Shown here piece by piece: positions 35,745 to 38,699 of a stretch of DNA of 64,000 nt (its first letter is position 1; each line of letters begins with the position of its first letter). The notes beneath the pieces are model-generated. The model made no database searches. It had not been told where the DNA came from and saw nothing but the letters and a program-made list of their open reading frames with translations. Position numbers and translations under genes: made by a program. The DNA is from Hyphomicrobiales bacterium (GTDB lineage Bacteria > Pseudomonadota > Alphaproteobacteria > Rhizobiales > Beijerinckiaceae): contig JAFLCX010000001.1 of assembly GCA_017302635.1 (NCBI GenBank), positions 496,001-560,000 on the forward strand, written 5' to 3'.

Positions 35745-35780
35745 AAAAACCCACGCTTTCCGGGGTCTGGAAAGCGTGGG
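35745..35780 (-). terminator. Strong terminator of the repeat-protein gene
   Basis: A perfect 12-pair stem, CCCACGCTTTCC (35750-35761) with GGAAAGCGTGGG (35769-35780) and a seven-base loop. On the minus strand it is followed by five U. It lies between two converging genes and may be bidirectional, though the plus strand lacks a T-run. Confidence 0.88.
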
Positions 35781-35853
35781 CGAAGTCATCCTTGGGGGCG
35801 AAGGTCGAGGCCCGACCCAATCGATTGCCGGGCCTCGTCTCGTTGGGTATGTT

Positions 35854-37788
35854 TCAGGCCACCTTGCTCAGGAAGCCCTTTTTCGTATCCGGCTTGGCAT
35901 CCGAAGAACCACCGCGGTCCATCACCTCGTTGCGATCAAGGTTCTGGCCCAACCGCTGTCCGGGCATCGCGTCGGAATAGGGGAAGTATTTCCGGGCTTC
36001 GTTGCGCTCGCGGACTTCCTCGTTGCGATCTCGACGGCTGTCGAGATCTTCGAAGATTTCGCGAGCCCGATCGCTGACACCCTGCATCGACTTGGTCATG
36101 AACTCAGCGAAGCGATCCACAACGGCTTCCGGACGGAACTGCCCGACCGGTCGATCCCACTCGGCTGCGGACTCAACTGGCGCGGCCTGTTCGCCAACAG
36201 CAGTCTTTTCATCAACCGGCTTGGCTTTGGGCGGCTCGTTATTGCCTGCCTGTGGCTGAGAACCGGCCGGCGCAGAGCCCGGCTCGGTCGATGAACCGGA
36301 GCCAGACCCCGCCGGAACCGGAGGAGCCGACCCGGAACCAGCCGATGTGCCGCTGCCATTGCCGGCGCCAGCACCAGCACCATTGCCCGAACCCGAGCCA
36401 TTGCCAGCGCCGTTGCCATTGCCCGAACCGGGCGCGACCGGGGCAGGCGGTGTCGGACCCGCGCCAGCTGGCGACCCAACGCCATTGCCGGCACCAGCGC
36501 CATTGCCCGAACCCGAACCATTGCCGGAACTGCCCGCGATGGACGGCAGCGGCGGAAGTGTGGGCGGAATGAGGCCGGTGTAACGCTCGCGGTTCGACTG
36601 CAGCTCCTGATTTTTCAGGGCGAAGTCGTTCATGGCGGTTTGCAGCCGCAGGTACTCGCCCCGCGTGATTCCTCCGTCGGCGAGTTTCGTTTCGAGGTCT
36701 GCGATCGATTGCTGCGAGTTCAGCAGCGTGGTGGTTTCCTCGTTGGTCAGCGTGCGGTTGGTCACGCCGCGGGCAAGACTTTCAAGCTGCTGGGCTTGAC
36801 GCAGGTCCACATGTTTCTGATCGACATAGCTGTCGGCGAGCTTCTTGCCGGCATCGTTGCGCTGGAGATCATAGAGCACGATTTCGGCATCGTTGAGCGC
36901 GCTGCTCATCTTGACCGCATCGCGCCAGTCCACGCGGCCATCGGCACGCAGCTCGGCCTCGAATGTCGCAGCCTTGTCAAAGGCCGAACGGACCGCGTCC
37001 GCCTCGGCCTCGGTGAGCGCTCCCGCCTTGATCCCGGCTGCAAGCTGCTTTTCGAGATCAGCCTGGCGACGATCGATCTGGTCGCCATAATTGGTATTGG
37101 CAACATTGTTGCCAACGGAATTGCGGCGCAGGTTGTTGATCGCGTCGGCTTCCTTGCGCAGGAGGTCAAGAACCTGCTTCTGCTCGCCGGCCGTCAACTT
37201 GCCATCGCTGTCACGGAAGGCCGTCTCGAGCTTGTTGAGCTCATCCTGGCGCGCGAGGAGCCCTTTGGCTTCATCGGCCGTGAGCGAACCATCCTTGATG
37301 CCCGCATTGATGCGGTTCATCAGGTTTTCCTGAACGATATCGAGATCAGCACCCGAGATGCCCTGAACCGAATTCAGGTCGGCACCCTTGCCGTTCGTGG
37401 TCAAACGGCCGATCTGGGCCTCGGCCCGCTCAAGGCGACGTTCGAGACGGGCGAGATCCTTCTCGGTCGGGCCGCCTGCCTTGGCCTGAATCTTCGCGGC
37501 ATAGGCCGAAATCGCTTCCTGGCGCTTCATCACGCGCGCGCCTTCCTCGAAAGTCAGCGAGCGATCATAGAGCGCCGCGCCAATCTGCTGACGCTGCATG
37601 AAAGCACGGGCGTCAAGCTCCTTCAGCGTCGGCACCGCCTTAGCGCCGGTCTCGGGCTTTGCCGCCGACTTTTCCTGGGAATTCTTCTCATTCGCTGCCT
37701 TCAGTGCAGCTGCCTTGTCCTTGGCTTCGTTCGCCTTGAGCGTCGCGATATCCACCGCGACAGCCGACGCCTTCACTGTATTGACCAT
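35854..37788 (-). CDS. Unrecognised repeat protein with EF-hand-like loops and a Gly/Asn-rich linker
   Basis: A 644-residue soluble protein without a clear signal peptide. Residues 1-50 are Ala/Lys-rich. Residues about 60-395 hold four repeats of 60-75 residues (about 65-127, 157-218, 243-306, 334-394). Each has a first loop of type DGSLTADE, a helix, then a second loop of type DGKLTAGE or DGGITRGE; these resemble EF-hand loops but most lack the first acidic residue. Residues 415-515 are almost only Gly, Asn, Ser, Ala and Pro. Residues about 540-644 form a charged helical tail with VVDRFAEFMTKSMQGVSDRAREIFEDL. No family recognised. It has its own terminator, and a 29-base inverted repeat lies upstream. 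See findings. Confidence 0.75.
   Translation of the reverse strand: MVNTVKASAVAVDIATLKANEAKDKAAALKAANEKNSQEKSAAKPETGAKAVPTLKELDARAFMQRQQIGAALYDRSLTFEEGARVMKRQEAISAYAAKIQAKAGGPTEKDLARLERRLERAEAQIGRLTTNGKGADLNSVQGISGADLDIVQENLMNRINAGIKDGSLTADEAKGLLARQDELNKLETAFRDSDGKLTAGEQKQVLDLLRKEADAINNLRRNSVGNNVANTNYGDQIDRRQADLEKQLAAGIKAGALTEAEADAVRSAFDKAATFEAELRADGRVDWRDAVKMSSALNDAEIVLYDLQRNDAGKKLADSYVDQKHVDLRQAQQLESLARGVTNRTLTNEETTTLLNSQQSIADLETKLADGGITRGEYLRLQTAMNDFALKNQELQSNRERYTGLIPPTLPPLPSIAGSSGNGSGSGNGAGAGNGVGSPAGAGPTPPAPVAPGSGNGNGAGNGSGSGNGAGAGAGNGSGTSAGSGSAPPVPAGSGSGSSTEPGSAPAGSQPQAGNNEPPKAKPVDEKTAVGEQAAPVESAAEWDRPVGQFRPEAVVDRFAEFMTKSMQGVSDRAREIFEDLDSRRDRNEEVRERNEARKYFPYSDAMPGQRLGQNLDRNEVMDRGGSSDAKPDTKKGFLSKVA
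36330..36540. repeat. Degenerate short tandem repeats inside the repeat-protein gene
   Basis: On the plus strand units such as CCATTGCCGG, GCGCCAGCACCAGC and CATTGCCCGAACC recur many times with small changes. They encode the Gly-Asn-Gly-Ser-Gly-Ala linker and keep the frame, so this is a coding low-complexity repeat prone to length change. Confidence 0.8.
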
Positions 37789-37843
37789 TTTCTTGTCCTC
37801 ACACCTGCTTTCTGCAGACCGAGGAGCGATAGAGGGTCAGGCG

Positions 37844-37872
37844 TTTGATCGGTTCAAACATGAACGATCAAA
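37844..37872. promoter_or_regulatory. 29-base near-perfect inverted repeat upstream of the repeat-protein gene
   Basis: TTTGATCG and CGATCAAA form the outer arms, and GTTCA/TGAAC the inner arms, with a single extra base on one side. It lies 56 bases before the start codon. TAAAAT at 37872-37877 on the minus strand could be a -10 box directly beside it, which would make this a repressor operator or a 5'-leader hairpin. Confidence 0.5.
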
Positions 37873-37952
37873 TTTTATGCAATTCGTCTTTTCAGATTAG
37901 ACCTAAGTCGGAGGCCGATATTCTTGGTAAACGCGTTCGATACAATCGGCGA

Positions 37953-38699
37953 CTATCGCTGTGTGATCTGTCGGAAAATCTGCTGAAGCGCATCGACCTG
38001 CGTGTTCTGCACTTCCTGCCCGGTCTGGAACATGCCCTTGAGCATATCGAGCCCGGCCGCCATCGGGTCCTGCGGCGGGGGTGGCGCTTCGGGCGCGCGC
38101 CCGCCGAAGAAGCTTCCGAGAATATTGCCAAGCATCCCGCCCATACCGCCCATCTGCGGCTGTTGCGGCGCCATCTGCTGCCCGAACATGCCGCCGAGGA
38201 CCGAGCCGAGGCCACCCGGCATTCCGCCCGCAGCCCCGCCCTGCATCATCTGGCCGAGAAGGCCACCGAGGCCATTGTTCATCGCGCCCTTGAAGAGCCC
38301 GCCCATCACCATCGAGGCAATCACCGGCAGCATCTGCTGCATCATGCTGGCGGGAAGCCCGGCGAACTGAGCGGCCTGCGCAGCGACAGCCTGCGTTGTT
38401 TCGGGGGTGCCGAACATCGCGCCGAGCGCGTTCTGGCTGTCATTATCGAGATGATCGGGAATGCCGTCGCCGTCCGAATCGAAGAACTCCGCCGCGCCCT
38501 GCGCCTGCCCGAGCGAGCCGAGCAGATTCTGCCAACCTTCCATCGACTGGGTCTGCTGTTGCAGGCCCATCGAGAACGCCGGGAGCAGCGCCTCGACGGC
38601 CTTCTGGGCCTGATCGGGACCGATGCCGAACTGGTTCGCGAGATTGTTATAGGCGTTGCCACCCTGCGCCTGCTGCATGATCTCGAACAGATTGAGCAT
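37953..38699 (-). CDS. DUF937-like protein with an inserted calcium-type loop
   Basis: A 248-residue protein. N-terminus MLNLFEIMQQAQGGNAYNNLANQFG and the repeated Gly/Met-rich helices (GLGGLLGQMMQGGAAGGMPGGLG cores) match the DUF937/YidB style of small helical proteins. At residues 74-87 there is an Asp-rich loop FDSDGDGIPDHLDND, the pattern of thrombospondin type 3 calcium-binding repeats, placed between the two helical parts. The C-terminal half is rich in Gly, Met, Gln and Pro. No signal peptide. Its neighbour on the same strand also has acidic loops. Function unknown; calcium binding is inference. Confidence 0.72.
   Translation of the reverse strand: MLNLFEIMQQAQGGNAYNNLANQFGIGPDQAQKAVEALLPAFSMGLQQQTQSMEGWQNLLGSLGQAQGAAEFFDSDGDGIPDHLDNDSQNALGAMFGTPETTQAVAAQAAQFAGLPASMMQQMLPVIASMVMGGLFKGAMNNGLGGLLGQMMQGGAAGGMPGGLGSVLGGMFGQQMAPQQPQMGGMGGMLGNILGSFFGGRAPEAPPPPQDPMAAGLDMLKGMFQTGQEVQNTQVDALQQIFRQITQR

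Follow-up and report, generated by a model that had tools for sequence, protein, structure and literature searches.

The locus described here raises the question of what kind of protein is encoded by a gene whose four repeats carry paired loops resembling those of EF-hands. The sequence-only reading had placed this protein in no known family, had left a choice between degenerate calcium sites and a look-alike helical repeat, and had suggested that the gene might belong, with its neighbor, to a calcium-linked or envelope system. The gene lies in a 64,000-nucleotide stretch of DNA from a Hyphomicrobiales bacterium, which is referred to as the window. The features of the locus are collected in Table 1.

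Table 1. Features of the four-repeat gene and its surroundings (window positions)
Feature	Position	Strand	Basis or remark
Four-repeat protein gene	35854..37788	minus	644 aa, ATG start; ORF, orthologues in 13/17 genomes of the genus, purifying selection
Repeat 1 (residues 55-132), copy diverged most	37393..37626	minus	Repeat comparison, model, profile
Repeat 2 (residues 148-223)	37120..37347	minus	Repeat comparison, models, profile
Repeat 3 (residues 237-311)	36856..37080	minus	Repeat comparison, model, profile
Repeat 4 (residues 326-399)	36592..36813	minus	Repeat comparison, model, profile
Low-complexity Gly/Ser/Ala/Pro/Asn linker (residues 409-508)	36265..36564	minus	Composition, orthologue alignment
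Charged tail (residues 552-644)	35857..36135	minus	Alignment
Intrinsic terminator	35749..35781	minus	12-bp perfect stem and U-run
Leader hairpin, 5-bp stem, GC-AGRAN-GC core	37804..37818	minus	Covaries across the genus
Inverted repeat TTTGATCG-N13-CGATCAAA	37844..37872	.	Unique in the genome, unconserved in the genus
AT-rich upstream motif GCATAAAATTTGA	37868..37883	minus	Conserved in relatives, TAAAAT
DUF937 gene	37953..38699	minus	Same-strand upstream neighbor; DUF937 E 1.5e-17

Protein layout and distribution in Rhabdaerophilum

Comparison of the four copies, each 74-78 residues long, bore out the repeat structure: five of the six pairs gave z values of 4.7-14.4, with at most one of 1,000 shuffles scoring as high. 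The pairing of repeat 1 with repeat 3 was weaker (z 3.2, 5 of 1,000 shuffles as high). The Gly/Asn/Ser/Ala stretch of ∼100 residues and the charged tail that had been described after the repeats are both present, and the stretch also proved to be rich in proline (32 Gly, 18 Ser, 16 Ala, 15 Pro, and 8 Asn). Alignment of the orthologues revealed that this linker differs from protein to protein in both length and unit, and that the tail contains a partly conserved RFAE(W/F)MT segment and a KKVA-like C terminus. The four-repeat protein contains no cysteine.

Of 17 genomes of the genus Rhabdaerophilum searched with the whole protein, 13 have an orthologue; in another 83 genomes from the family and order, the one match obtained was weak and confined to the low-complexity part. 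When genome contigs were scanned, the single-protein query yielded no locus and the alignment query yielded 12. Among four close relatives, dN/dS was 0.05-0.09 over the first 400 codons, which hold the repeats, and 0.19-0.33 over the linker and tail. This is a real, selected gene restricted to Rhabdaerophilum, and its repeats, which are under strong purifying selection, are the constrained part of the protein.

The surroundings of the gene are nearly invariant: of 12 relatives whose flanks were retrieved, 11 have it directly after the DUF937 gene, in an almost fixed order with MATE, argP, gshA, and rsmE genes. In all, the DUF937 gene adjoins the orthologue in 12 of the 13 genomes that possess it. 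The DUF937 protein encoded at 37953-38699 contains a loop, DSDGDGIPDHLD, that is similar to a thrombospondin type 3 calcium repeat, the match being below cut-off. In three near-complete genomes (G003, G007, and G011), the same neighborhood is found with the gene absent, and no repeat was detected elsewhere in them at better than E 0.15; the gene is accordingly dispensable. In a further genome, G006, the gene is missing from its usual site and is located on another contig. Given the empty sites and the location in G006, the gene is an accessory one that favors a particular site. On the G006 contig (L050, 7833-9926 and 15140-17041), the orthologue lies near a fused integrase/transposase ORF, and either relocation or a binning error is possible.

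An unnamed domain family in the Pseudomonadota

As judged by sequence profiles run in both directions, the four repeats belong to a widespread, unnamed domain family of ∼75 residues. A profile built exclusively from proteins outside the genus matched all four repeats of the window protein at E 4.9e-39, scaled to a database of one million sequences, and among 2,000 shuffles none exceeded 14.8 bits. With the reverse profile, the outside proteins reached as much as 66 bits versus 8.9 bits for the best shuffle, and a profile restricted to the genus repeats recovered short proteins from further families within the order, with E values down to 1.4e-17. With a broader profile, the domain was detected in 17 of the 385 genomes sampled from the class and in 31 of the 398 sampled from the phylum, both samples including Rhabdaerophilum genomes.

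The relatives are mostly exported proteins of 100-200 residues that contain one copy of the domain, with the same GxLTxxE and DGxLTxxE turns; a few have two to four copies. A hydropathy test found an N-terminal signal-like segment in 34 of 37 distinct family proteins, and inspection by eye of one more (L121) raised the total to about 35. The two proteins lacking a signal peptide are both from Rhabdaerophilum. A signal peptide is thus a common feature of members but does not define the domain. The window protein thus differs from its single-repeat relatives in having four copies, no signal peptide, and a linker and tail. Tandem copies resembling those of the window protein also occur in other Alphaproteobacteria, namely in L121 (four copies) and L089 (three copies), but these two proteins have a signal peptide, and their repeats are not followed by a long linker and a tail. 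In L121, a 510-residue ORF predicted to be exported, copies 2-4 are nearly identical, suggesting a recent tandem duplication, whereas the copies in the window protein are much more diverged from one another. A second leaderless two-repeat protein (221 residues, with a Ser/Thr-rich start) is encoded at 6500-7165 of L125, from an unrelated alphaproteobacterium, and matches the repeat profile weakly.

No model in Pfam or NCBIfam scored above cut-off for the members tested. The earlier assignment to no known family therefore held with respect to named families, but not with respect to relatives, given the match to a widespread domain. Weak Pfam matches to VioE, Arg_decarbox_C, DUF533, and SHOCT were set aside, being below cut-off and inconsistent between members, as were the sequence matches in the PDB, which comprised Gly/Ser linker matches and chance matches. 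The repeat part had no match in collections of plasmids and phages; the few annotated plasmid copies of the domain that were found are labeled “hypothetical protein.” Phrase searches of the literature returned nothing on the domain, and among papers found under the name Rhabdaerophilum none, judged by title or abstract, concerned the four-repeat gene.

Predicted fold and the calcium question

Each repeat is predicted to fold as an antiparallel three-helix bundle. An AlphaFold (AF2) model of the four-repeat region, computed with 11 orthologues, had a mean pLDDT of 75.9 and a pTM of 0.72, and showed each repeat as three helices of ∼20-25 residues with turns of 4-7 residues between them. Across five runs, the pLDDT of this model ranged from 55 to 76, so the orientation of the bundles relative to each other is uncertain. 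A model of a single repeat, for which 35 copies were taken from the window and from 24 loci, reached a pLDDT of 87.2, with helices at 4-24, 29-53, and 58-85. Foldseek returned no match at E ≤ 0.001 for either model. The best structural analogues were antiparallel three-helix coiled coils of designed origin, matched over 80 residues at an rmsd of 2.1 (Z 12.0); values of Z up to 12, as obtained with VIA-align, are in the range usual for helical bundles and indicate arrangement only. The likeness of the models to three-helix coiled coils is one of common arrangement and indicates no kinship. Spectrin-type bundles likewise share the predicted fold of each repeat, with no sequence relationship shown for them or for the designed bundles. 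Spectrin repeats are longer, and no spectrin profile in Pfam matched.

In the AlphaFold models, the GxLTxxE and DGxLTxxE motifs map to the two helix turns of each repeat, and the LT of each motif marks the start of a helix. An S/T-x-x-E capping box is the pattern expected at a helix N-cap. An EF-hand loop spans 12 residues and supplies oxygen ligands, with acidic residues usual at positions 1, 3, 5, and 12. When acidic residues were counted at the EF-hand loop positions over 8 loops in 13 orthologues, they were found at position 1 in 15%, position 3 in 10%, position 5 in 51%, position 9 in 13%, and position 12 in 99%, and threonine was usual at position 9. On these residue frequencies, the constant acidic position 12 and Thr at position 9 are more consistent with a capping box than with a calcium loop.

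It is very improbable that the repeats are degenerate, calcium-binding EF-hand pairs and that the protein serves as a calcium sensor or buffer. Loop positions 5, 6, 8, and 12 are EF-hand-like in several copies, and repeat 4 of one orthologue contains the sequence DGDGKLDRGE. This partial likeness to EF-hand proteins is opposed by the rarity of acidic ligands at positions 1 and 3, by the lack of any Pfam EF-hand match at E ≤ 10, and by a different predicted fold, a three-helix bundle with short turns. Among the structural matches listed, the top ones were three-helix coiled coils, and no EF-hand chain was present, absence from such a list being compatible with an EF-hand fold. Of the two possibilities raised earlier for the loops, the look-alike helical repeat is favored over degenerate calcium sites, and the motifs are probably helix caps that mimic calcium sites. 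The suggested calcium-linked or envelope system with the neighboring gene is not positively supported: genomes devoid of the four-repeat gene, both inside and outside the genus, can also contain the DUF937 gene.

Control region, location, and function

The very strong terminator noted downstream of the gene is real (Table 1). Upstream, the operator-like inverted repeat is present and unique in the genome, but it is not conserved in the relatives. The AT-rich motif, which in the window precedes the start codon by 80-95 nt, occurs once in the genome when up to 2 mismatches are allowed. Closer to the gene, ∼27 nt before the start codon, lies a leader hairpin with an AGRAN loop closed by invariant GC pairs. 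Across 11 distinct sequences, the share of stem cells able to pair is 90.9% versus 77.1% in shuffles, and two pairs change on both sides. Much of the covariation signal was retained when the pairing partner was slid by one column, so the exact register of the stem is uncertain. A search of Rfam gave a sub-threshold chance match only.

Membership in a flagellar regulon was considered and rejected, as the leader hairpin is absent from 20 flagellin upstream regions in 9 relatives and from those of the flagellins in the same genome. The flagellin upstream regions carry recurring sequences of their own, including a TTTAACC-type motif and CAGAAGGTG before the start. The latter is shared by the flagellin leaders L131-L150 and L128, several of which also contain a GGCCAGGATGGCC-type palindrome; the two elements together may represent a translational control element.

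Hydropathy analysis of the 13 orthologues revealed no signal peptide, membrane helix, or hydrophobic N-terminal stretch. Together with the four predicted bundles, the disordered linker, and the charged tail, this makes it most likely that the protein serves in the cytoplasm as a multivalent spacer or scaffold. The gene encodes a leaderless, four-copy form of the unnamed domain, and in the proposed mechanism the G-x-LT-x-x-E motifs would serve as turns and helix N-caps holding both hairpin bends in place rather than as calcium loops. The four bundles would form a chain of helical modules, tied by the disordered and fast-changing linker to the partly conserved charged tail, and partners bound to the repeats and tail might be held apart or together. 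What we infer from these features is a location in the cytoplasm, the shape of a rod, and a role as a scaffold, and we consider the chances that the account as a whole is correct to be about even.

As the relatives are nearly all predicted to be exported, a non-classical export route is possible for the window protein, and export is the main rival to a cytoplasmic role. The protein would then leave the cell without a Sec signal, by a flagellar type III or type I route, and act outside the inner membrane as its relatives do. The presence of flagellin genes in all 17 genomes of the genus makes the flagellar route plausible, and both protein ends have short conserved motifs (a MIQNVSS-like start and the KKVA-like end) beside disordered stretches. 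However, there are no flagellar or type I genes near the four-repeat gene, its leader is unlike the flagellin leaders of the genus, and the three near-complete genomes without the gene do have flagellin; we regard export as rather unlikely. Less probable still is a cytoplasmic condensate or pole organizer, in which the linker would drive self-association and the helical parts would bind clients. The layout of a folded helical part, a long low-complexity linker, and a charged C-terminal part would suit such a protein, but Pfam searches found no sequence link to described organizers, and the linker varies freely in composition and length between orthologues.

The locus presents an undescribed domain family in leaderless tandem form, and probably not a calcium system. 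With regard to its origin, we tentatively suggest that an exported helical domain may have been converted in one genus to a leaderless four-domain scaffold acting in another compartment, with its own leader hairpin controlling expression. As the domain spans the Pseudomonadota, defining the family would give a name to many hypothetical proteins and would warn against EF-hand labels for its members. The Rhabdaerophilum gene provides a natural experiment on the role of the domain when it is multiplied and lacks an export signal.
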